Below are positions 1,132-19,535 of a stretch of 20,412 bases of DNA, in pieces (the first letter of the stretch is position 1; the number at the start of each line of letters is the position of its first letter). The notes under the pieces were generated by a model that was not told where the DNA came from, ran no database searches, and worked only from the letters and a program-made list of their open reading frames with translations. The position numbers and the translations under genes are program-made. Source of the stretch: a virus; IMG/VR virus record IMGVR_UViG_3300009379_000006, positions 1 through 20,412 of that record; one strand, 5' to 3'.

Positions 1132-2034
1132 TTAAATCCAATCCGGAACGAGGAGTTCCAGCTTGCCGTGAAGGGTGTTGGTTTCGCCGCCCGCCTTGAT
1201 CTCTTTGAGAGCCTCCTCGGCCGCTTTCTCCTGTCCGGATCTCGCCACCAGAAGGTTGGGACGGATGCCAAGTTTCTTGCCACCGTCTGACTTGAAGCCT
1301 TTCATGGCTTCGTAGGCCGCCCAGATGTTGTCAGGGTTGATCTCCGCCTTTGAGCAGAAGGCCATCTGCCAGAAGCCGTAACCGGCGTTGGCGCGGCAAT
1401 CCACGCCGTAACGGTACTGCTTGGCGGTGAAGACCTGCTCATCGGAGCCTTCAATCATCCGTTCGAACTTCATGGGCCTGCGCTCCTGGTAGATCAGCGG
1501 GTAAAGGGCGCGGGTGGTGTCCAAAAGGAACCAGGCAGGCCCAGCACCGTCGATGTAGTTGGAGACGGATGCCGCCGTGCCCGTGCCGTCAGCGTTGGGG
1601 TAGACGGGGTGGTCGGTGTCGAAGAAGTACTGGCCGTCGTAACATTCGGTGGTGAGTCCGGCATAGAGCAGGGGGAAAACCAGCTCATCGGGGAACACCT
1701 CGGAAGCTCGGCCCATCTCCTGGAAGAGGGGCGCGTACACGCCGATCTCGTCGTCTTCGATGTCGTCACGGTCCACACCGATGGTGGATTCAAACGACTT
1801 GTTCACAATGCTGTAGGCATGGGCGGCCATTTGGTTGATCACGCGGTCGCCGATCCACTCACGAAACGCGGGCCACTTGCCCAGCCATCCGTAAGTTGTG
1901 GACTTCCCCCCACTGGGAACCTTGGTGGCTACTTTCAGATACTGGGAGTTGGCCATGGACTGGCCCTCCTGAAACTTCTTGCTGAAGCCCACCATCTGGG
2001 CCTGCAAAAGGGCCGGGGTAATAATGGTCGCCAT
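1132..2034 (-). CDS. T: Major capsid protein, Mu gpT-like
   Basis: The product is 300 residues and forms the icosahedral shell. Recognisable gpT features in order: N-terminal ITPALLQAQMVGFSKKFQEG, the TTYGWLGKWPAFREWIGDR motif around residue 45-65, SFESTIGVDRDDIEDDEIG near 80-98, and YFFDTDHPVYPNADGTG near 137-153. Its length matches the family. The start overlaps the stop of the protease/scaffold gene (TAATG), so it is coupled to it. Gene I before and the gp35-like gene after match the Mu arrangement. Confidence 0.95.
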   Translation of the reverse strand: MATIITPALLQAQMVGFSKKFQEGQSMANSQYLKVATKVPSGGKSTTYGWLGKWPAFREWIGDRVINQMAAHAYSIVNKSFESTIGVDRDDIEDDEIGVYAPLFQEMGRASEVFPDELVFPLLYAGLTTECYDGQYFFDTDHPVYPNADGTGTAASVSNYIDGAGPAWFLLDTTRALYPLIYQERRPMKFERMIEGSDEQVFTAKQYRYGVDCRANAGYGFWQMAFCSKAEINPDNIWAAYEAMKGFKSDGGKKLGIRPNLLVARSGQEKAAEEALKEIKAGGETNTLHGKLELLVPDWI

Positions 2035-2540
2035 TAACCGATCTCCTTCTTGGTCTTGATATATTCATCTTCGGCAATGCCCAGCTGGCGGCACACCGCC
2101 TTGTCCTCATCGGAAAGGCTCCCGCTCTTATCCTTGAGGTCCTTGCCGTCAAGGCCCGTGTCGCCTGCCACCTCCGGTGCCGCTTCGGCAAAGGCCTTGA
2201 ACCGGTCCAGCCCCCCTTCGGTGCGGCACTGAGCCTTGTGGTAGTCCACACTGCCGGGCGTAATCTTGCCGCCTTCAAGGGCCGTGTTGAGGGCGGTCTC
2301 GATGGATGCCTCCAGGCTCTCAGTCTCTTGGGTTTTGAGCTTCTGCTCGGCGTTGGCAGCGCGAGACACCGCCGCGTTGTAATCTTCACGCGGTACAAAC
2401 TTTTCAAGGGAGGGCGTCTCGGCCCGGTTCTGTGCGGTGGCCAGGTCTCCCTTCAGCTTTGCCGCCGCCGTGAGCACCTGCTCTTCGGTGGCGTCTTCAG
2501 GGACACCCAGCGTTTGGCACAACGCTTTGGGGAATTTCAT
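2034..2540 (-). CDS. Internal in-frame scaffold protein (Mu gpZ equivalent)
   Basis: Within gene I, residue 163 is a methionine (ATG at 2540) preceded by AGGAG with a six-base spacer, a far better ribosome site than the one of gene I itself. Translation from here gives 168 residues (starting MKFPKALCQTLGVPEDATEE) that are rich in Ala, Glu and Lys, include a heptad-like NAEQKLKTQETESLEASIETA stretch, and lack the protease domain. In Mu the scaffold Z is made from an internal start in I, so this is the expected second product. The start is inferred from sequence, not observed. Confidence 0.7.
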   Translation of the reverse strand: MKFPKALCQTLGVPEDATEEQVLTAAAKLKGDLATAQNRAETPSLEKFVPREDYNAAVSRAANAEQKLKTQETESLEASIETALNTALEGGKITPGSVDYHKAQCRTEGGLDRFKAFAEAAPEVAGDTGLDGKDLKDKSGSLSDEDKAVCRQLGIAEDEYIKTKKEIG

Positions 2541-3026
2541 GTCGGTCTCCTCATTGGGGGTTGTCTGTCGATTCAGCGCCGTCAAATGCAGGTTGGGCTG
2601 GTTGGTCAGCCCTGCCGATGTGAGGGCTATAATCCGGCGGTCCTGGGTGGTGTACAGAAAGACCGGGGAGAGGTAGCGGTACCGCTTGTTGGTGATGTCG
2701 TCGGCTCCGTCTGTCGTCCATTCGGTCTGTCCCCAGATGGCACCGTCCCGTACCTCCATCGCCTTGATCCATCCCGCCGCCGGGGCCTTCTCACCCTTGG
2801 GGGCTTTCTTCTCAGTGGCGTGTTCCCAATCGATGGGCAGGTCCGCACCGTTGGATTCAAACGCAGCCACCACCTCGTCGGGGGTGGGGTTGATCCAGTG
2901 GCGCTTGTCCCGCCCCAGGACCAACTCACCTGCCGGGATCAGCTCCACCCATTCGGGAAGGGAGCCGTCTTCGGGAAGCCGGACGTTCAGGGCGATTTTT
3001 AACTGTGGGGTCTTTTTCCTGTTCAT
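2034..3026 (-). CDS. I: Mu gpI-like prohead protease fused to scaffold
   Basis: The product is 330 residues. The N-terminal half (about 1-150) is the Mu-like protease domain: EWVELIPAGELVLGRDKRHW, then PIDWEHAT with H69, then YRYLSPVFLYT, and RIIALTSAGLTNQPNL with S137; H69 and S137 are the likely catalytic pair of this serine protease family. The C-terminal half (163-330) is charged, helical and scaffold-like. It contains an internal start for a separate scaffold product (separate entry). The ATG at 3026 has no clear Shine-Dalgarno; the bases before it are GTTACCTTGGCAGC. It is the first gene after a 284-bp gap that carries a candidate late promoter, as at Mu PI. It overlaps gpT by one base. 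Confidence 0.92.
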   Translation of the reverse strand: MNRKKTPQLKIALNVRLPEDGSLPEWVELIPAGELVLGRDKRHWINPTPDEVVAAFESNGADLPIDWEHATEKKAPKGEKAPAAGWIKAMEVRDGAIWGQTEWTTDGADDITNKRYRYLSPVFLYTTQDRRIIALTSAGLTNQPNLHLTALNRQTTPNEETDMKFPKALCQTLGVPEDATEEQVLTAAAKLKGDLATAQNRAETPSLEKFVPREDYNAAVSRAANAEQKLKTQETESLEASIETALNTALEGGKITPGSVDYHKAQCRTEGGLDRFKAFAEAAPEVAGDTGLDGKDLKDKSGSLSDEDKAVCRQLGIAEDEYIKTKKEIG

Positions 3027-3048
3027 GCTGCCAAGGTAACAGCCGGGC

Positions 3049-3090
3049 GGTAAAGGTGTGTTTCATGCGTTTCACCATGAAATTCAGGGG
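3049..3090 (-). promoter_or_regulatory. Candidate late promoter / activator site (PI-like)
   Basis: This 42-bp stretch aligns without gaps to 9829-9870, in front of the first lysis gene. Shared columns on the minus strand read CCCCTnAAnT, then GnTGAAA, four bases, TGAAACACnCC. The pattern includes the dyad TTTCA-TGG-TGAAA. The left edge lies 64 bp before the gene I ATG, against 65 bp for the other copy. Mu has its C-activated PI and Plys promoters at exactly these two gene positions. A weak -10 (TACCTT, 3038-3033) would put the transcript start at or next to the ATG. Confidence 0.6.
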
Positions 3091-3140
3091 TGTTCGGGCT
3101 GAAAAATAGCTTGGAGAAAGGGGGCCTGGGATCCCGGGGC

Positions 3141-3154
3141 GGCGGTTGGCCGCC
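3141..3154 (-). terminator. GC hairpin upstream of PI-like promoter
   Basis: GGCGG-loop-CCGCC hairpin between the end of gene F and the gene I promoter motif, with the further palindrome GGGATCCC at 3128-3135 and then CCCCCTTTCTCC on the minus strand. It lacks a clean U-run, so it is a weak intrinsic or Rho-assisted terminator at best. A similar but stronger hairpin lies in the same relative place before the lysis promoter. The rest of 3155-3310 shows no gene. Confidence 0.4.
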
Positions 3155-3310
3155 TCCGAAAGCCCTGGTCGGTGGGGATGTGGGGGATATCGCAGCCTGC
3201 CAATATTCAAAATACGGGGCTGAATATCGGATGCAGAAGGATTTGCGAGGTGTGTTTATGGCTCAGTATGTATTCAGGAGTGATCGTTTAATTTTGAGCT
3301 GTTTTGCGGT

Positions 3311-4108
3311 CTACTCCTTCCAGAGTGCTTTGGCCGCTTTGATATCGGCGGGATGGGCCGTGGCCAGCTTCTGATTCAATATATCGCTTAAAGCATCCAT
3401 GCGCGCCTTGCCGGGGTTCCAATCCCATCCCGGATCGATTCCTTTCGGAACCTCCACGGTCTCGCCGGTGCGCTTGTTCTCCCAGGAACGCATCACCACC
3501 TCGGGCCGCTTGGTCACACCGCCCAGGCGCTGGGCTTCCCGCTCCGTGATTTGGCGCACGAAGCACTTGCACCCCCATCCGTTGGGCGGGAAGTGCGTCA
3601 GCCAGAACGGATCATCCACAGGCAGGATGATATTATGCCAGGCCACATGCTCCTCCCGGTGGTCGGTGGACGGCCCCAGCTGGTAGATGAAATAGGGCCG
3701 GAGCTTCTTCGTGCGCTGGGCGCGCTCCCACTGGGCTGCAGCCCTGGCCGTGCGCATGTTGGCCCGGTAGATGGTTTTCAGCCTTCGGGGGCTGCCCAGC
3801 TGGGCCTCCACCACTTCGCCGGTCTCCGGGTCCACCATCTCCTGAACGCCCCACCAGCCCCGCTTCTGCAGGGTCGGTGTCAGCTTTTTGGCGAACTGTT
3901 GAAACGTCTGGCCGCCTTCCTTGGCCCTGTCCACCGCCTCCCGGATGTCGGCAAGCAGGTCCATCTCCATGGCCTTGGCCACCGTGAAGGCGCTGGCGTG
4001 CTCGGCCTTCCACACGTCGCGGTAATCAAAGCCAATGGCCCACCCCTTGGTGCGGAAGTACGCCAGGGCTTCCTTGGGCACCGGGCCGGGGAACATGTAA
4101 TCAGGCAT
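3311..4108 (-). CDS. Mu gpF-like minor head protein (phage head morphogenesis, SPP1 gp7 domain)
   Basis: The product is 265 residues. N-terminal FPGPVPKEALAYFRTKGWAIGFDYRDVW is the usual start of Mu gp30/F proteins. The core head-morphogenesis domain lies at about 110-190: RLKTIYRANMRTARAAAQW, then the His/Cys-rich segment with H150, H154, H158, HFPPNGWGCKCFVRQ (C180, C182). The family is a minor head protein near the portal, injected or involved in early capsid assembly. It overlaps the portal gene by eight bases. It is shorter than Mu F and ends soon after the domain, so the long C-terminal extension of Mu F is absent. No frameshift is visible. Confidence 0.9.
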   Translation of the reverse strand: MPDYMFPGPVPKEALAYFRTKGWAIGFDYRDVWKAEHASAFTVAKAMEMDLLADIREAVDRAKEGGQTFQQFAKKLTPTLQKRGWWGVQEMVDPETGEVVEAQLGSPRRLKTIYRANMRTARAAAQWERAQRTKKLRPYFIYQLGPSTDHREEHVAWHNIILPVDDPFWLTHFPPNGWGCKCFVRQITEREAQRLGGVTKRPEVVMRSWENKRTGETVEVPKGIDPGWDWNPGKARMDALSDILNQKLATAHPADIKAAKALWKE

Positions 4109-5645
4109 CGGTGGCGTCCCCCTGGCCCCTGGCTTTGAAGGTCGCCTCGGCCATGTGCTTGATCACGTCGCCGGGGTCCATCTCGGCAAGCAGGCCGGGG
4201 AGCCCTTCAAGGAAATCGTCAAAGGAGTCCACTTTATCTGCCAATGCAAGCACCGGATTGACGACGGGCTCCATTTGGGGCTCCCATTCGGCCAGCATGG
4301 CTTCTTCAATTTCATCCAGGGTATCGGTGGGCATGGCCGACTCGGTGCGGTTCAGGGCCTTGTTTGCCCCCTTGGCTGCATTGTCCGCTGTCGGGGTCGG
4401 TGCACCCAACAGTTCAGCGTCTGGCTTTGGATCGGGAACACCCAACTTATCCCGCGCCCAGGCTGCGGGCACCTTCAGGCCCAGGGGCACCAGCTTTTCA
4501 AGGGCATCGGTCAAAGCCTTGATATCCTCCGGTTCATGAACGGCAAGCATGATGCGGGGATACGCCTCTTGCTTACCGAAGTTGATGTCCACGAAGGGCT
4601 TCACCAGGTCACGGTTCAACGTGTTGGCAAGGGCCTTGGCATCGGCCTTGAGAATGTCTTTTCTTACGTCATCCTGGGCGTCGTCGTTGCCAAGCTTGCC
4701 GGGAGTCCCCTCGCTGCTGGCCGTCTGTCCCAGGACCGCCTTGGAAACCTGCCTGTCCAGCCATTCGGCCAGCTTCAAAAACAGCTCATGGCCACCGGCC
4801 CCCTTGGCCGTCTCCTGGAAGTCGATGCGCATGGTATCGGGCAGCACCGCCGCCGCATCCGAACCGATGTTGGCCACCGCCTTGATCAGGGTCTCGATGT
4901 CCTTTTGCGTGGCGTTGGAATTGTAACGTCCCAGGCGAAGGGGCATACCGAAGATCTCGGCAAAGGCCATCCAGTCCTTCAGGGTAAAGCTCTTGCACAT
5001 GTAGCTGGCCGCCGCCAGCCTGGCCAGCCCGCCCCGAATGGGGATCCCGCTCTTGATACGGGGCGTGTGGATGATGAACTTGAAAGGCGGCAAAGCTATG
5101 CCATTGTGGTGCCTCTCATCCATCAGGCGCAGGGTGCGGCCATCCTCCTGGTCGAACACAAAAAAGCGGGGGTCACGCCACCTGTAGGTGGGGATCCAGG
5201 AGACCCCCTTGTCCCATACAATCTCCACGGTGCTGAACCCCTTGCCCAACCCATCCAGCAGGTCATCCACCGCCTCGCCAAACTCCGGCTTGCGGGTCAG
5301 CTCGCGAACGGCAGCGGCTATCTTCATATCCTCCGGAGACTCCGAGGCGGCCTCCACCGTGGGCTCAATCCCAGAAACGGCACGCTTCCGGGTCCCCAGC
5401 ACACTGGCATAGTGGGGTTCTCGTTCCTCCATCTCTTCGGCCAGGGTGAGGTAGTCCCAGGCGTTGCCGTCGGCTGCGTTGGAAAGGATGGTGGCCAGCC
5501 GCGCGGGCGAGAGGTTGTTGGCCGCCGAAGCAAAGGACCACACAGAGCGGATCCCCATCAGCGTGGGGGCGGCGATCTCTTCGGTTAAGGCGCGCTCGGG
5601 CAAGAGCTTGTTATCCGGGCCATACAGGCGAACGTTTTGTGACAT
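4101..5645 (-). CDS. Portal protein, Mu gp29-like (DUF935)
   Basis: The product is 514 residues and forms the dodecameric DNA gate at the capsid vertex. Diagnostic segments: MEEREPHYASVLGTRKRAVSG (72-92), LGKGFSTVEIVWD (133-145), YRWRDPRFFVFD (154-165), MCKSFTLKDWMAFAEIFGMPLRLGRY (216-241) and WLDRQVSKAVLGQT (295-308), all standard in DUF935 portals. The C-terminal about 100 residues are acidic and low in conservation. The ATG overlaps the terminase stop (TAATG) and the gene overlaps F by eight bases, so packaging and portal genes are tightly coupled. Confidence 0.95.
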   Translation of the reverse strand: MSQNVRLYGPDNKLLPERALTEEIAAPTLMGIRSVWSFASAANNLSPARLATILSNAADGNAWDYLTLAEEMEEREPHYASVLGTRKRAVSGIEPTVEAASESPEDMKIAAAVRELTRKPEFGEAVDDLLDGLGKGFSTVEIVWDKGVSWIPTYRWRDPRFFVFDQEDGRTLRLMDERHHNGIALPPFKFIIHTPRIKSGIPIRGGLARLAAASYMCKSFTLKDWMAFAEIFGMPLRLGRYNSNATQKDIETLIKAVANIGSDAAAVLPDTMRIDFQETAKGAGGHELFLKLAEWLDRQVSKAVLGQTASSEGTPGKLGNDDAQDDVRKDILKADAKALANTLNRDLVKPFVDINFGKQEAYPRIMLAVHEPEDIKALTDALEKLVPLGLKVPAAWARDKLGVPDPKPDAELLGAPTPTADNAAKGANKALNRTESAMPTDTLDEIEEAMLAEWEPQMEPVVNPVLALADKVDSFDDFLEGLPGLLAEMDPGDVIKHMAEATFKARGQGDATDA

Positions 5646-7291
5646 TAGAGAATCCCTCCTCGTGATCGAAAGCCAGCGGTAATGCGCACGGGCCGGTCGA
5701 TGGGGTCATCGTCTTCGGTGAGTTTGGGTTTAACGGGGGTATAGGCAAAGATCTCCACATCGCTTTGTGAGGCGGCGTAGGCTAAGGCCAGGGCGATGGC
5801 TGCATCCCCATGGCGCTTGAAATCCGAGTTCTTGGTATCTTCCACCCGGAGCTTGGGCAGCTTCACGATTCCGTCGATACGCTCCAGACTGCGCAGGTCA
5901 TTCTTGATATCCAAATCTTTAGGAAGATCCATCATCCCGTCTTCAAAGGCTTGCACAAAGGGCTCCATATTTTCACGGTACCAGCTGTCGCTAAGCTTGA
6001 TCTCTCCAATGCGATTGCGGCCATACCGATCTGCCGTATATTCGGCCAGGGTGTACCCGTTGCCAGAGGCGTCCATCTCGCCGCGCCGCCAGCGGGGAAG
6101 CCGGTCAATGATGTGGTAGATGATCTGCTCCTGGTGGCGCGTGGGCACGTTGTGCATCTCAAGAGCCCACGGCACCCGCCGGGTTAAAGTTTTTGTAATC
6201 TCCATGGGCGTGAAGACGGCAAAGTCCCAGTAGCGGGAGTAGTCCGAGCCGAACACCTGTTCATGCTCGGGATTGAGAAGGTCAAACAGCGGGTCGATAT
6301 GCGCCTCTATCCACGCTTCTATCCAGGAATCCCGGTACTCTAAGCTGCGAGGCACAAAGCTGTCCTCAAGGGCCAGCCGCAACACGGGCCGCTCTTCGGT
6401 CATGCATTTTTCTATCAACACACCGGGGATGGCCACGCCGCTTCCTTCTCGCGGGATGGCGTCCAGCTCCTCCAGCATGGCGGCACGCCGCGTGCCATAA
6501 CCCTTGCGCACCTTCTCGTACCACTCTTTTTTCCCTTCCGGGCTCGGCGTCCAGCCCCGCACCAGGCACACCCGTTCGTACAACCCGTTGGCTACTGCAT
6601 CGTCAAAGGTGACGTGAAAAACCTTGAACGCATAAAGCCCGGCGCGTGAGTCTTTGATCAGCTGGTTAAAGGCGTTCTTGGCCCCGTTATGGGTGGAGAT
6701 GATACGGATTTTCCCGCCCCAGATAATAAGCGCCAGGCACGCCTCGATGACGGCGTCCACGTTGGCGTGGAAGGCCGCCTCGTCAATGTTCACGATCCCC
6801 TGAAGGCCCCGGATGTTTGCCGGGTTGCTGGAGAGGGCCACAATCTTGAACCCCGAGGCAAACCGGATGCGATAGGCCGTGATGTTCTTGGACGTGCCGT
6901 CCTCCCGCTGGTCTTCAAAAAGAAAGACCTCCACACCGTCCCAGCCCACCGCCATGGCCGTGGCCATCACCTTGGCCATGTGGGCACAGTAGCCGATAAA
7001 TTCCAGGCCCTTTTCTTTTGTGTCGCCCACGTAATAAATATCATCACCGCCTGCCGAGCGTTTGCTGGAGGCGGTGATGGTGTCGTCTAAGGCCGTGGCA
7101 TAGGTGATGCCGGTTCGGCGGCCCTTCTCGGCAGCGCACAGGTCGTTGTGTGCGATCAGGTCACACCACTCCACCTGATGCTTCATCAAAACGCCTTCAT
7201 CCAGGGGGTTGTAGCCTTCGGGAATCTCCCGAACGCTCTTCGGCAGGTCTTCCCAGTTCAGCACCCGCAATGTATCGCCCGGTATCTGCAT
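5645..7291 (-). CDS. Terminase large subunit, Mu gp28-like
   Basis: The product is 548 residues from ATG 7291, which overlaps the gp27 stop (TGATG) with AGGGG five bases upstream; a GTG three bases earlier is an alternative. This is the DNA-packaging motor and nuclease. The ATPase part has a divergent Walker A around 53-63 (AAEKGRRTGIT, no GKT), Walker B at 166-171 (IVNIDE) and a coupling motif IISTHNG near 200. The RNase H-like nuclease has three acidic residues in context: GSDYSRYWDF (about D350), MDASGNG (about D407) and RHGDAAIA (about D496). The degenerate Walker A is usual for the Mu gp28 group. It follows the small subunit and precedes the portal. Confidence 0.95.
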   Translation of the reverse strand: MQIPGDTLRVLNWEDLPKSVREIPEGYNPLDEGVLMKHQVEWCDLIAHNDLCAAEKGRRTGITYATALDDTITASSKRSAGGDDIYYVGDTKEKGLEFIGYCAHMAKVMATAMAVGWDGVEVFLFEDQREDGTSKNITAYRIRFASGFKIVALSSNPANIRGLQGIVNIDEAAFHANVDAVIEACLALIIWGGKIRIISTHNGAKNAFNQLIKDSRAGLYAFKVFHVTFDDAVANGLYERVCLVRGWTPSPEGKKEWYEKVRKGYGTRRAAMLEELDAIPREGSGVAIPGVLIEKCMTEERPVLRLALEDSFVPRSLEYRDSWIEAWIEAHIDPLFDLLNPEHEQVFGSDYSRYWDFAVFTPMEITKTLTRRVPWALEMHNVPTRHQEQIIYHIIDRLPRWRRGEMDASGNGYTLAEYTADRYGRNRIGEIKLSDSWYRENMEPFVQAFEDGMMDLPKDLDIKNDLRSLERIDGIVKLPKLRVEDTKNSDFKRHGDAAIALALAYAASQSDVEIFAYTPVKPKLTEDDDPIDRPVRITAGFRSRGGIL

Positions 7292-7851
7292 CACATCCCC
7301 TTCAGCACGCGTTCACGCCAGAAGCTGGCCTGGTCGGAATCCATGCCCATCTGCTTTGCCGTCTCCTCCACGGTTTCTGCTGCGTTCTCAAGGACCTCTT
7401 TTCGGATCACCGCCTCACGTTCCATGCTGGTCTTACTGGCTCGCTCCACTCTCTGGGTGATGAGCGCCAGATCCTTCAGGGTATCAAGGTTCTGCTCGCC
7501 CCCATTGGCAACGATGTCAAAGGCAAAGGTCTTCACCATTTCGGTCAGCGCCCGGCCCAGGTCCGTGCCTTTCTGCTCCCCAAGGCCGCCCACCAGGGCG
7601 TTGGCCGCCTCCCTGGCTTCCCGCATCATGGCCCCTTTCTCTTCGATGGCCACCGAGTAACGATTGACCGCGCTTTTAGAGAGGGGCATCTTGCCACGCC
7701 CAGTAAGGGCCTCATTGATATCTCCCACAATCTCGGTCTGTGTCTTGCGCCGGTCACGCAGATCCGAGTTGAGCTTTAAGCGCAAATCTTCGGGCAGCGT
7801 GTCGATGGATGAGGGGCGGCCCCGGCCCGTCTTTCGTTTCCGCTTTGCCAT
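7291..7851 (-). CDS. Terminase small subunit, Mu gp27-like (DUF3486)
   Basis: The product is 186 residues. A basic N-terminus (MAKRKRKTGRGRPSSIDTLP) leads into a DNA-binding helical region (LRDRRKTQTEIVGDINEALT, then PLSKSAVNRYSVAIEEKG) typical of DUF3486, which corresponds to Mu gp27 and recognises packaging DNA. The C-terminal part is a long helical oligomerisation segment (about 90-170). It sits one base after the gp26-like gene and overlaps the large terminase, as in Mu. Confidence 0.92.
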   Translation of the reverse strand: MAKRKRKTGRGRPSSIDTLPEDLRLKLNSDLRDRRKTQTEIVGDINEALTGRGKMPLSKSAVNRYSVAIEEKGAMMREAREAANALVGGLGEQKGTDLGRALTEMVKTFAFDIVANGGEQNLDTLKDLALITQRVERASKTSMEREAVIRKEVLENAAETVEETAKQMGMDSDQASFWRERVLKGM

Positions 7852-7852
7852 G

Positions 7853-8149
7853 CTACTTCCTCCTGGGGGAGGGTCGCTTGATCCCCGGTGCCGTCACCCG
7901 ACCGCGCGCCACATCGGCCCCGCGTTCGGTGAGGGTGGCAATGATGATCTTGCCGTCGTCCAACTCCACAAGCCCCTGCTCGGCCAACCAGGCAAGCTCC
8001 GTGCGCACCTTGTCCCGGCTGGGGGTAAAGCCAAAATTCTCGGTGAGATCCGTCATAAGCGAATCGTTCAGGGTGTAGTCCGGATCTTCGAAGAGCAACC
8101 GCAGCAGGGTGAGGCGCAGATGCTCGGTAATGGTATCTTTGTAGCTCAT
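7853..8149 (-). CDS. Mu gp26-like winged-helix protein (VpaChn25_0724 family)
   Basis: The product is 98 residues. The sequence reads as a small winged helix: HLRLTLLRLLFEDPDY, NDSLMTDLTENFGFTPSRDKVRTELAWLAEQGLV, then a wing-like ELDDGKIIIATLTERGADVARGR. Small proteins of this kind occupy the gp26 position before DUF3486 in many Mu-like phages and are annotated as VpaChn25_0724 family; their function is not established. Start and stop overlap their neighbours (ATGA with the gp25-like gene, one-base gap to gp27). The basic tail IKRPSPRRK may contact nucleic acid. Confidence 0.8.
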   Translation of the reverse strand: MSYKDTITEHLRLTLLRLLFEDPDYTLNDSLMTDLTENFGFTPSRDKVRTELAWLAEQGLVELDDGKIIIATLTERGADVARGRVTAPGIKRPSPRRK

Positions 8150-8514
8150 GATGTTTGTCCTTTTCCGTTCAGCAGGTGATCTTGGATGATGTCCAAAGTG
8201 CCCTGGATGCTATCCATTTTTCCGGAAAGTACGGATACGTCGTTGCTCACCGTCGTGACATCTTTAGACACATCTGTAATACGTTCATAGACGGCCCCCA
8301 GGTCCTCATGAGAAAGGGCGTGAACCATGTCGGTCTCCACCTTGGTGACGCGGTCTTTCGTCTTTGCCACGTCCTTTCTTATCTTCTCAATCTCGTGGGT
8401 GTTGGTCTGGGTCCGGTTGGAGAGCCACACGTAAACGGCAACCCCAATGGTGCCGAAACACTGCGCCACATCAAACCAGAACCGCAGAGCCGAGTAGTCA
8501 GGTGGTTTAGTCAC
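8146..8514 (-). CDS. Mu gp25-like membrane-anchored coiled coil (DUF2730)
   Basis: The product is 122 residues. A single transmembrane segment (CFGTIGVAVYVWLSN, about 19-33) is followed by a long coiled coil rich in heptads (IEKIRKDVAKTKDRVTKVET and ITDVSKDVTTVSNDVSVLSGKM). This is the DUF2730 layout, the Mu gp25 position. It may act in lysis as an inner-membrane partner of the neighbouring holin-like protein, but this is inference. The start is GTG at 8514, overlapping the stop of the zinc-finger gene (GTGA). Confidence 0.85.
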   Translation of the reverse strand: MTKPPDYSALRFWFDVAQCFGTIGVAVYVWLSNRTQTNTHEIEKIRKDVAKTKDRVTKVETDMVHALSHEDLGAVYERITDVSKDVTTVSNDVSVLSGKMDSIQGTLDIIQDHLLNGKGQTS

Positions 8515-8723
8515 ATCGGGTTCCTTTCATGTTTTTCCTGGCACCTGACGCATCGCACACAGCCAGGCTCAGCATTTCTTCTGCCTTCCGGGATCTCTTC
8601 ACCGCAGTCCACGCATTCCATGAAGGATTCCCCGGAAGAGGCCCGCCCCTTTTCAAGTTGGCGGGCCAATGCATCCTGGTTAAATCGCCCGGTATAAACG
8701 CTTGCCCGATCACATTCATCCAT
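8511..8723 (-). CDS. TraR/DksA-type C4 zinc finger protein
   Basis: The product is 70 residues from ATG 8723, four bases after the holin-like gene. The C-terminal half carries the DksA/TraR zinc finger CVDCGEEIPEGRRNAEPG followed by CVRCQEKHE (four cysteines). N-terminal ECDRASVYTGRFNQDALARQ is the usual short helix of phage TraR-like proteins. Such proteins bind the secondary channel of RNA polymerase and can alter host transcription; here this is inferred from family. It is commonly placed in the lysis-to-head interval of Mu-like phages. The reading frame stays open upstream to 8786, but the extra residues overlap the upstream gene and do not fit the family. Confidence 0.85.
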   Translation of the reverse strand: MDECDRASVYTGRFNQDALARQLEKGRASSGESFMECVDCGEEIPEGRRNAEPGCVRCVRCQEKHERNPM

Positions 8724-8727
8724 GGTG

Positions 8728-9366
8728 TCAAGCACTCCCCAGTTTAAGCGTTTTCGCCAGGCCCTTGGATGCCATGCGATCCCCAAACCACCAGGTCACT
8801 GCCGTCACCGTGAGATACAAAACGATATTGATGGTATCCGAGATAATGCCCCCGGCCATGGCAGGCGTCAGCGTCGGGGCGTTCACCGCCTCCAGGAGCT
8901 TCCACGCTTTCACGGTGATCCAGGTGCTGACGCCCAGGAGGTAGGCGGTGATGGTGGGCCGGGCCATGGACTTGAAGGCGTCGGCCATTCCGAAGAGCAT
9001 GGCCAGAAGCACCCCGAAAGGAATGGTGACCCAGCGTGCCCGGCCCGTGGCGTCAAAGAGCCGGTCCATGTAACCGCTGTCAAAGACCCGAACACGGCCA
9101 GCCTTCTGGCTTTCGGTAAAGGCCCCCACTTCAGCCACTTCAATCTCTCCGGACACTCGCGCGGTGGTCACTTTGATGTTGGCCTCTGCTTCGGCCACCA
9201 TGGCCTCACTCTCAGCTTTCACCATGGTCACTTCGTGAGCGCGCTGTTTGTCCCGGTCTTTGATTTCCAGCTCTTTATTCTTACGCTGGTTGTAGGTAGA
9301 CCAGACGGTACCTAAAAGGCCCGTCAGCCCGCCAAAAAGGGTCGTAAAAAGGGTTCCCTCAAGCAT
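8728..9366 (-). CDS. Putative holin / multi-TM lysis protein
   Basis: The product is 212 residues with four hydrophobic segments: about 6-22 (LFTTLFGGLTGLLGTVW), 112-130 (WVTIPFGVLLAMLFGMADA), 138-155 and 176-194 (NIVLYLTVTAVTWWFG). Between the first and second lies a charged coiled-coil region (KNKELEIKDRDKQRAHEV onward, rich in E and A). This architecture and its place right after the DUF5675 gene, which it overlaps by eight bases, point to a holin or related inner-membrane lysis component. No specific holin family is recognised. GGGGGA lies about seven bases before the ATG. Confidence 0.6.
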   Translation of the reverse strand: MLEGTLFTTLFGGLTGLLGTVWSTYNQRKNKELEIKDRDKQRAHEVTMVKAESEAMVAEAEANIKVTTARVSGEIEVAEVGAFTESQKAGRVRVFDSGYMDRLFDATGRARWVTIPFGVLLAMLFGMADAFKSMARPTITAYLLGVSTWITVKAWKLLEAVNAPTLTPAMAGGIISDTINIVLYLTVTAVTWWFGDRMASKGLAKTLKLGSA

Positions 9367-9805
9367 TGTGTTTCCCCCAGGGTTCGATGATGGTGATCTG
9401 GGCGTCTTTGCCCGCCATCAATGTGTTGAATCGCCTCACCGTGGTCCGTGACACCAGGACGGCCCGTTGACCATTCAGCCAGCCCATGCGTTTGCCCAGG
9501 AGGACACACCCCTCCACATGGGTCTTGAATCCCTTGTGAATGTCCCCGGCATAGTTGCCGGAGTGAAGAAGGATGTAGGTACGGCCAGGAACCTGGCGGA
9601 TGTGGTAGGTAGAACGCCTGCTCGTCACACGCCATGCCATGGGGTAGGTGCCGGGCGGAATGCACGACACATTGGAACGGTTGTTCCGCCAGGGCAGCTC
9701 CAGGGTGAAGCAGGCGAAGCCAAGCTCGGGAACGGTCAGGAAACCTTCGGTCCCTTGGTCGGTCCGACGTAATCGGGTGAGGTATACGTTAGTCGTCTTT
9801 TCCAT
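9359..9805 (-). CDS. DUF5675 family protein, probable lysis/peptidoglycan-active enzyme
   Basis: The product is 148 residues. The pattern GTEGFLTVPELGFACFTLELPW, SCIPPGTYPMAW, YILLHSGNYAGD (H81) and HVEGCVLLG (C100) is that of DUF5675. The gene lies first in the lysis cassette, where Mu has its lysozyme gene, so a role in cell-wall degradation is likely but not proven. The His-x-Gly plus Gly-Cys arrangement recalls L,D-transpeptidase folds; this resemblance is my inference. No signal peptide is visible, so export would need the holin. The ATG at 9805 lacks a Shine-Dalgarno and follows a late promoter motif. Confidence 0.72.
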   Translation of the reverse strand: MEKTTNVYLTRLRRTDQGTEGFLTVPELGFACFTLELPWRNNRSNVSCIPPGTYPMAWRVTSRRSTYHIRQVPGRTYILLHSGNYAGDIHKGFKTHVEGCVLLGKRMGWLNGQRAVLVSRTTVRRFNTLMAGKDAQITIIEPWGKHNA

Positions 9806-9828
9806 GTGCGCACTACATCACATGGGAA

Positions 9829-9870
9829 GGAAAGGGGGTGTTTCAGCGTTTTCAACGAAGATTTGAGGGG
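9829..9870 (-). promoter_or_regulatory. Candidate late promoter / activator site (Plys-like)
   Basis: Ungapped partner of the motif at 3049-3090, with shared CCCCTnAAnT, TGAAA and TGAAACAC blocks at the same spacing. It starts 65 bp before the ATG of the first lysis gene. A plausible -10 (TGTAGT, 9817-9812) lies at -12 to -7 relative to that ATG, with no Shine-Dalgarno in between. The Mor/C-family gene is immediately upstream and is the likely activator. Confidence 0.62.
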
Positions 9871-9923: not shown

Positions 9924-10358
9924 CTACTTAAACGGCAGTATCATCTGGCTGCGGTCCTGCCTCAACGTGCGCTCTTTGCTGATAATGTTGTATATCGTCG
10001 GGGTGGTGAGCCCGGTCTTGCGGGAAAGCTCCAGGTGGTTGCCCCCGTCAAAGGCCCGGTAGATCATCGCATCCCGGATGGCCCGCTTCAGGCGGTCATC
10101 CCGTGGCAGGTAGATGTTGCGGCCACCCAGATAATGGGCGATCACCACAATCACATTTTGAGCCCATTCCATGGCTCCATCCGGTTTCATCTTGGCCCAT
10201 CCCTCGAAGTGATCGGCCACCCGGTCCACCAGCTCGGCCAGGAGGGTGGGCCACACTCGGGGATCATCTCTCACCGCAGGGTCCAGGGCGTTCAACACCT
10301 GATTCACATCCATGTAATCCGGGTCAAACAAGTCGAGTTGTTCAGGTTCCTTTTTCAT
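9924..10358 (-). CDS. Mor/C-family transcription activator
   Basis: The product is 144 residues from ATG 10358, which has GGAGG four bases upstream; an in-frame ATG at 10382 has no ribosome site. The C-terminal half is the classic Mor domain: the dimer helix PDGAMEWAQNVIVVIAHYLG, the connecting strand GGRNIYLPR (78-86), and the HTH with HLELSRKTGLTTPTIYNIIS (about 108-127). Mu has two such proteins, Mor (middle) and C (late); only one is seen here. Its position just before the lysis genes corresponds to C, so it probably activates the late promoters at 9829-9870 and 3049-3090. Confidence 0.92.
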   Translation of the reverse strand: MKKEPEQLDLFDPDYMDVNQVLNALDPAVRDDPRVWPTLLAELVDRVADHFEGWAKMKPDGAMEWAQNVIVVIAHYLGGRNIYLPRDDRLKRAIRDAMIYRAFDGGNHLELSRKTGLTTPTIYNIISKERTLRQDRSQMILPFK

Positions 10359-10379
10359 CTTTCCTCCATATCGGCTGCT

Positions 10380-10435
10380 CATCAGGGCAAGGCCACCACG
10401 CCCTGCCGACGCCCCGAGGGGCGTTCCGCTTCTTC
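10380..10435. repeat. Tandem stem-loop repeat, copy 2
   Basis: A 56-bp intergenic element that matches 11968-12025 at 52 of 58 aligned columns. It has two hairpins: an outer CAGGGC/GCCCTG pair and ACGCCCC-GA-GGGGCGT (10409-10424). It overlaps the last two bases of the gene ending at 10434 and precedes the Mor/C gene. Likely a terminator or a mobile REP-like element. Confidence 0.75.
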
Positions 10436-18770: not shown

Positions 18771-19535
18771 ATGGGGATCGAAGCAGCGATAAACCGAATT
18801 AAAAATGCAACAGGAATCAAGACCCAGAAGGAATTGGCAGATCTACTTGACGTGCCACAGCCCTCAATCTCTGATGCAAAGAAGAGGGGCAACATTCCCG
18901 CAATTTGGCTTGTCAAGCTTTGTAATAGCTACGATCTTAATCCTAAGTGGGTTCAGGACGGGGCTGAACCGATATACATTGGTAGGGGAAATGAAGGGGA
19001 GAGTGTAGGCGCACCCACACAAAAGGCCATACGGCAGCCGTCATGCATACGCCAGGAATGCAGGATTGAAGAGGATGAGAACGGGGAGCTGAAGGTACCC
19101 GTCTTGGAAGCGCCGGAGGTGGACCATTACGATTACATCCCCATGGTCGAGGCCCGGTTGTCGGCGGGAGGCGGGTCCTTTATGGCCAGCGAGCGGATCA
19201 GGGACTACTACGCCTTCCGCAAGGCCTTCATCGCCAACGTCGCCACATCAGTAAAAAAACTTATCCTGATGCGTGTCTCCGGCGAATCCATGGAACCCGA
19301 GATCCGAAACGGGGCCACCGTCATGATTGACCTGGGCCGCAGGCACATCAAAAACAACTGCATCTTCGCCCTGGGCCTCGGTGACACCATATCTATTAAG
19401 GAGCTTGAAATGCTTCCCGGTGGCATCGTTCGCGTCATCTCCAAGAATCCCCAGTACCCCGCATACGAAGCCGACGCCAAGGACCTCCGCATCATCGGGC
19501 AGGTGATCTGGGGGGACAGATTGTACCCGCTATAA
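18771..19535 (+). CDS. LexA/CI-like phage repressor (HTH + S24 peptidase)
   Basis: The product is 254 residues from ATG 18771, with GAGGG four bases upstream. An N-terminal HTH (TQKELADLLDVPQPSISDAK, 18-37) is followed by a linker and an S24 autoprotease domain: cleavage site A132-G133 (ARLSAGGGSF), catalytic S173 in VSGESMEPEIRNG and K210 in DTISIKELE. This is the form that self-cleaves when RecA is activated, so the lysogen is probably SOS-inducible. Mu's own repressor is not of this type. The DNA is visibly more AT-rich in the HTH half than in the protease half, suggesting domain exchange. It is divergent from the early operon. Confidence 0.93.
   Translation: MGIEAAINRIKNATGIKTQKELADLLDVPQPSISDAKKRGNIPAIWLVKLCNSYDLNPKWVQDGAEPIYIGRGNEGESVGAPTQKAIRQPSCIRQECRIEEDENGELKVPVLEAPEVDHYDYIPMVEARLSAGGGSFMASERIRDYYAFRKAFIANVATSVKKLILMRVSGESMEPEIRNGATVMIDLGRRHIKNNCIFALGLGDTISIKELEMLPGGIVRVISKNPQYPAYEADAKDLRIIGQVIWGDRLYPL

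Follow-up and report, generated by a model that had tools for sequence, protein, structure and literature searches.

Two stretches of a Mu-like phage genome, one preceding gene I and the other preceding the first gene of the lysis/packaging operon, match each other closely, which raises the question of what these two late operon starts share and which protein would act there. The window, that is, the whole stretch of DNA analyzed, is an entire IMG/VR record (IMGVR_UViG_3300009379_000006; 20,412 bp), whose late genes lie on the minus strand (Table 1). From comparative sequence analysis, we consider it probable that both copies serve as operators for the only Mor/C protein of the phage at activator-dependent promoters, Plys and PI, with a -10 hexamer 6 nt before each ATG, and that both mRNAs are leaderless.

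Table 1. Predicted late-promoter features and associated genes in the window
Feature	Position	Strand	Basis
I copy, full 42-bp stretch CCCCTGAATTTCATGGTGAAACGCATGAAACACACCTTTACC, flanks CCCCT and CACACC	3049..3090 (reads 3090-3049)	-	28/42 match to lys copy
lys copy, full 42-bp stretch CCCCTCAAATCTTCGTTGAAAACGCTGAAACACCCCCTTTCC	9829..9870 (reads 9870-9829)	-	28/42 match to I copy
Putative Mor/C operator of PI, GTGAA-ACGC-ATGAA	3062..3075	-	Pair match, alignment with 15 clade sites, matrix
Putative Mor/C operator of Plys, TTGAA-AACG-CTGAA	9842..9855	-	Pair match, clade alignment, matrix
Putative extended -10 of PI, TG-T-TACCTT, hexamer 3038-3033	3033..3041	-	Ends 6 nt before ATG
Putative extended -10 of Plys, TG-A-TGTAGT, hexamer 9817-9812	9812..9820	-	Ends 6 nt before ATG
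GGCAGC-ATG, predicted transcription start at A (3026) of I start codon, no Shine-Dalgarno	3024..3032	-	Geometry
Predicted leaderless start of DUF5675 gene	9805	-	Geometry
Gene I, Mu-like head protease, opens head operon	2034..3026	-	Pfam Mu-like_Pro, E = 4e-64
DUF5675 protein, first gene of lysis/packaging operon	9359..9805	-	Pfam DUF5675, E = 3e-31
Mor/C-family activator, presumed binder of both operators	9924..10382	-	Pfam Mor, E = 3e-23

The two copies are identical at 28 of 42 positions without a gap, as the preliminary description had it, whereas the next-best 42-mer anywhere in the window reached 24 against the I copy and 22 against the lys copy. When the two intergenic regions were shuffled 500 times with dinucleotides preserved, no shuffle attained 28 (best score, mean 22.6, SD 1.2, maximum 27), and the pair ranked first in a blind scan of all gene-upstream pairs in the window. 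Exactly two occurrences of the TGAAACAC block were found in the record; both site copies lie at late operon starts and none lies at the early region. Distances to the start codons of 64 and 65 bp, given previously, hold when measured from the far edge of the match, and the core of the sites lies 49 to 50 bp 5' of the two ATGs. With the A of ATG taken as the putative +1, the operator centers fall at -42.5 (I) and -43.5 (lys). Neither operator has the TTAT...ATAA half-sites of Mu, so the sites do differ from the Mu C site as claimed.

The gene that follows the I copy is indeed gene I. The other gene had been called the first lysis gene; it is the first of the lysis/packaging operon, and the lysis role of the DUF5675 protein is putative, assigned from this position. 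The sole Mor/C gene of the record (a single HMM match) lies just upstream of the lys copy, again as first described. One Mor/C gene each was found in the window record and in two related IMG/VR records (G016 and G038), and Mu's two-step Mor-then-C cascade therefore seems to have collapsed to a single activator in these phages.

Searches of IMG/VR by peptide patterns found no close relatives of the window Mor/C, and relatives were therefore reached through the terminase and gene I. Neither did an exact search of IMG/VR with the 42-bp pattern give a match, because the code diverges quickly. The relatives comprised a Desulfoluna limicola prophage (L061; 77% identity to the window in both Mor/C and I), two Desulfobacterota contigs (L064 and L065), and two IMG/VR records (L018/G016 and L141/G038), all of which carry a matched pair of their own, exact or near exact, before the same two genes. 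The preliminary description would have been refuted by a lack of further copies at late operon starts in relatives; their presence at the same two operon starts instead supports its proposal that the PI and Plys positions hold predicted operators for the phage's own Mor/C.

Across 15 aligned clade sites, the consensus is a dyad, TTCAA-N4-TTGAA, followed by ACnC; half-site complementarity is highest at a spacer of 4 (4.13/5), and the ATG lies 49 to 51 bp from the site start in 15/15 sites. The preliminary description had taken a TTTCA/TGAAA dyad in the I copy as the operator. That dyad (spacer 10), tried as the main symmetry, is complete in the window I copy (5/5) and reaches only 1 to 4 of 5 in the other 14 clade sites; the symmetry conserved in relatives is TTCAA-N4-TTGAA, centered on ACGC, and the TTTCA/TGAAA dyad is probably not the operator. 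The window and the D. limicola prophage have diverged from the symmetric clade form (GTGAA-ACGC-ATGAA and GTGAA-ACGC-CTGAA, respectively), the window copies being two of the least symmetric sites in the clade (2 and 3 of 5 half-site pairs). The lys site of the D. limicola prophage has TTCAA-N11-TTGAA, resembling the wide spacing of Mu.

Each genome was then scored with a matrix built without its own sites. The pair gave the two best matches in G016 (30.7 and 30.2, next 14.7) and in G038 (30.9 and 30.8, next 12.4). In the window, the I operator was the best match (22.8), and the lys operator scored 14.4 against 13.0 for the next, which is barely above background by matrix alone; its assignment as a putative operator draws on its position and on the relatives. 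The lys copy of the D. limicola prophage is degenerate and fell outside the top matrix matches. The search for a further copy at the tail operon start, suggested earlier, found none above background by matrix in G016, G038, or the Desulfoluna region, and late promoters in the window clade seem to be only two; phage B23 has a third copy. A conserved weak site, CCCAAACGATTGAAAAACATGACG, lies directly 5' of an ATG in G038 (G038:C1 27214) and in the L064 contig (G036), approximately 9.3 kb past gene I (score 12.4); this ATG is too near for the late-promoter spacing.

A canonical -35/-10 promoter was rejected for the window sites, as a scan for sigma-70 consensus promoters found none at either. Both sites have a recognizable -10 and no consensus -35, and both genes lack a Shine-Dalgarno (SD) sequence, with the hexamer 6 nt before the ATG. 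At the position of the PI extended -10, the D. limicola prophage has TG-C-TATCTT; the Plys element is identical in that prophage and reads TG-A-TTTAGT, 7 nt before the ATG, in L064. With the -10 hexamer ending 6 nt ahead of the ATG, the first transcribed base should be the A of the start codon, and the constant distance from site to start codon implies leaderless mRNAs. On this geometry, late mRNAs that begin with gene I, and in the window phage those of both genes, are probably leaderless. For both copies, about 90% of the sites in 24 phages with pairs have NANNNT at an offset of 41 to 43, versus 2 to 3% elsewhere. Gene I starts without an SD in 73 of 114 non-redundant cases, compared with only 11% for the following head gene, and TANNNT ends 6 or 7 nt before the ATG at 18% of I starts versus at most about 1% of other late-gene starts; these gene starts were set by rule, and some are wrong (e.g., L148 and L080).

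The spacing also agrees with that of a characterized Mor-dependent promoter. At Mu Pm, which lacks a -35, Mor binds a dyad from -51 to -36, centered at -43.5, and recruits RNA polymerase (PMC4287176). This dyad of about 16 bp has nearly the same spacing as that of the window if +1 is the ATG; Pm differs in its half-sites and in that it drives the C gene, whereas the window sites would drive late structural and lysis operons. The operators could nevertheless be real and the leader nonzero, in which case a different -10 would set the start 10 to 25 nt ahead of the ATG and the hexamer would be incidental. The Mu lys and I promoters do have leaders with an SD, and the window hexamers (TACCTT and TGTAGT) match TATAAT weakly. 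We regard such a leader as unlikely, however, given the single offset of NANNNT in both copies across the 24 phages, the TG that precedes the hexamer in L061, L064, and the window, the missing SD, and a dyad center at -43.5 that demands a start at the ATG by analogy with Pm (PMC4287176).

The design of paired sites recurs with other half-sites among more distant Mor/C-bearing Mu-like phages, namely, G014 (CTGAA-N4-TTCAG), G017, G030, Shewanella MuM16-1 (a 25-bp exact pair), and B23. Together with the clade pairs, these co-diverged sites answer the earlier suggestion to look for the motif in related prophages. Further half-sites at I-protein loci include CGGAA-N4-TTCC, CTAAC-GCGC-GTTAG, GTGAC-N4-GTCAC, and GTGCA-ATTT-TGCAC. 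More than one late operon start per phage carries the putative operator: there are two copies in the window, G016, G038, G014, G017, and G030, and three in B23 (L057). The third B23 copy, CTGAAGGGCTTCAGGCC at 28422, lies about 130 bp 5' of a gene at 28554 that is annotated as a tail protein, which corresponds to where PP lies in Mu.

Recurrence was quantified in 33 non-redundant Mor/C phages without an SD before gene I by seeking the I site in the 3 kb past mor/C. The mean best match was 16.2/21, whereas the opposite strand gave 13.4 and a control with a packaging gene 13.0 (Wilcoxon p about 1e-5), and at least 17/21 positions were identical in 16/33 phages, versus 1 and 0 in the controls. Seventeen phages with an SD before gene I, a class that is mostly vibrio-type with some deltaproteobacterial phages, had a mean best match of 13.5 versus 13.0 in both controls, and 0 reached 17; no pair was seen in several Mor/C phages of this class. 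In the vibrio-type phages L129, L131, L132, L140, martha, and MuM16-2, gene I is preceded by an SD and no lys/I pair is clear, and GTTTAAAC-like repeats stand before other genes.

HMM matches to Mor/C were obtained in 94 sources, and the gene lies directly upstream of lys in most relatives. Site similarity grows with identity in the Mor/C helix-turn-helix (Mantel r = 0.66, p ≤ 0.0005). The N-terminal half of Mor/C correlates with site similarity equally strongly, so shared ancestry could explain the correlation between site and activator; a specificity code written in helix-turn-helix residues was dropped for this reason, and we make no residue-level claim. The binding of Mor/C being putative, another regulator might coordinate both operons through these sites, either a host factor or a phage repressor such as the CI-like protein that the window also encodes (18771-19535). 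This seems quite improbable to us, since there are two copies only, both of them preceding late operons while the early region has none, their position fits Mor/C activators, and mor/C lies just 5' of the lys copy in nearly all phages that have the pair.

The motif might also act in RNA, as a translation enhancer or hairpin in the 5' leader of both messages, and not as a DNA operator; the fixed distance from motif to ATG in the window clade and the inverted repeat that is often found around the hexamer just before the ATG would fit such an element. In L079, L087, L098, and L116, however, the first ATG after the second copy is 72 to 75 nt from the site start, mostly with an SD, compared with about 54 nt in leaderless cases. 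As the second copy holds the hexamer spacing despite this leader and SD, it is the interval to the hexamer (NANNNT), and not that to the ATG, that stays constant, which favors a promoter element over an RNA element. The dyad is moreover kept as DNA symmetry while its sequence varies, and it sits where Mor binds at Mu Pm (PMC4287176), so that a role in RNA appears very improbable. Chance similarity between two short GC-rich upstream regions, which the weakness of the window lys copy alone against background might suggest, is already refuted by the shuffles and by the independent pairs that many relatives carry at these positions.

The mechanism that we propose would begin with the single Mor/C protein being made before the late genes. 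A Mor/C dimer would bind the short dyad (two 5-bp half-sites with a 4-bp spacer), centered some 43 bp 5' of the start site, and bring host RNA polymerase to a promoter that has a -10 hexamer and no consensus -35, and the lysis/packaging and head operons would be transcribed from their first codons, both as leaderless mRNAs that would be translated as such. The layout (dyad, fixed spacing, and -10) would be kept across Mu-like phages, with the half-sites changing in step with the activator and every lineage thereby having a late-promoter code of its own. We further think it likely that, across a large part of the Mu-like phages, Mor/C-activated promoters transcribe the late head operon as leaderless mRNA, and do so for the lysis operon as well in some lineages; their dyads would share one geometry, and their sequence would diverge with the activator into a code private to each lineage.

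Among known systems, the window is best filed as a divergent member of the Mu C-activated late promoter kind. It resembles Mu Plys, PI, PP, and Pmom in having a Mor/C-family activator and in the lysis and head operon positions, and, like the Mu late promoters, it has a predicted operator upstream of and overlapping the -35 region, a weak -10, and no good -35. CCC stands directly past the right half-site in both (Mu oligonucleotides ATAATCCC and ATAACCCC, PMC4461284; window TGAAACACCCC). The Mu lys operator is TTAT-N11-ATAA (oligonucleotides of PMC4461284), in contrast to approximately TTCAA-N4-TTGAA here. Mu has four late promoters and both Mor and C, whereas two promoters and one Mor/C were found here, a separate Mor not being found, and Mu late mRNAs have a leader with an SD, whereas in the window phage the ATG is at the predicted start site.

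Leaderless promoters are exemplified by lambda PRM, from which the cI mRNA is transcribed; its -10 is set so that the transcript begins at the AUG, and it is activator dependent. The window promoters would share this -10 placement and activator dependence, and differ from PRM in the family of the activator and in that they precede the first genes of large late operons. Neither leaderless late mRNAs of Mu-like phages nor operator diversification in the Mor/C family turned up in a literature search that left most subscription journals outside its range, and this absence is weak evidence of novelty.

These results suggest that late promoters and their operator can be predicted from sequence for any Mu-like genome with a Mor/C gene, by comparing the region 5' of gene I with that 5' of the gene after mor/C. 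The many naturally matched activator-operator pairs are a resource for studying DNA recognition by Mor/C. Leaderless mRNAs for major phage structural operons are a testable claim, apparently absent from the literature searched, and, if true, would bear on the translation of these messages at late stages of infection.

Several further features were noticed. The window opens (positions 1 to 70) with a complete, indexed Illumina P7/Nextera adapter (CAAGCAGAAGACGGCATACGAGAT...AGATGTGTATAAGAGACAG) that is an artefact of assembly, and ORFs there are not real. An inverted repeat ending at the start codon often flanks the hexamer, as in the window (3027-3048 and 9803-9825) and at many I starts; examples are CATGTG..CACATG at the window lys gene and CCGCC-TAATCT-GGCGG-CATG elsewhere. 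A read-through transcript would fold this repeat into a hairpin just 5' of the AUG. In L090, L092, L093, L095, L110, L113, and L218, a terminator-like hairpin and T run directly precede the second-copy operator, presumably marking the end of the preceding operon.
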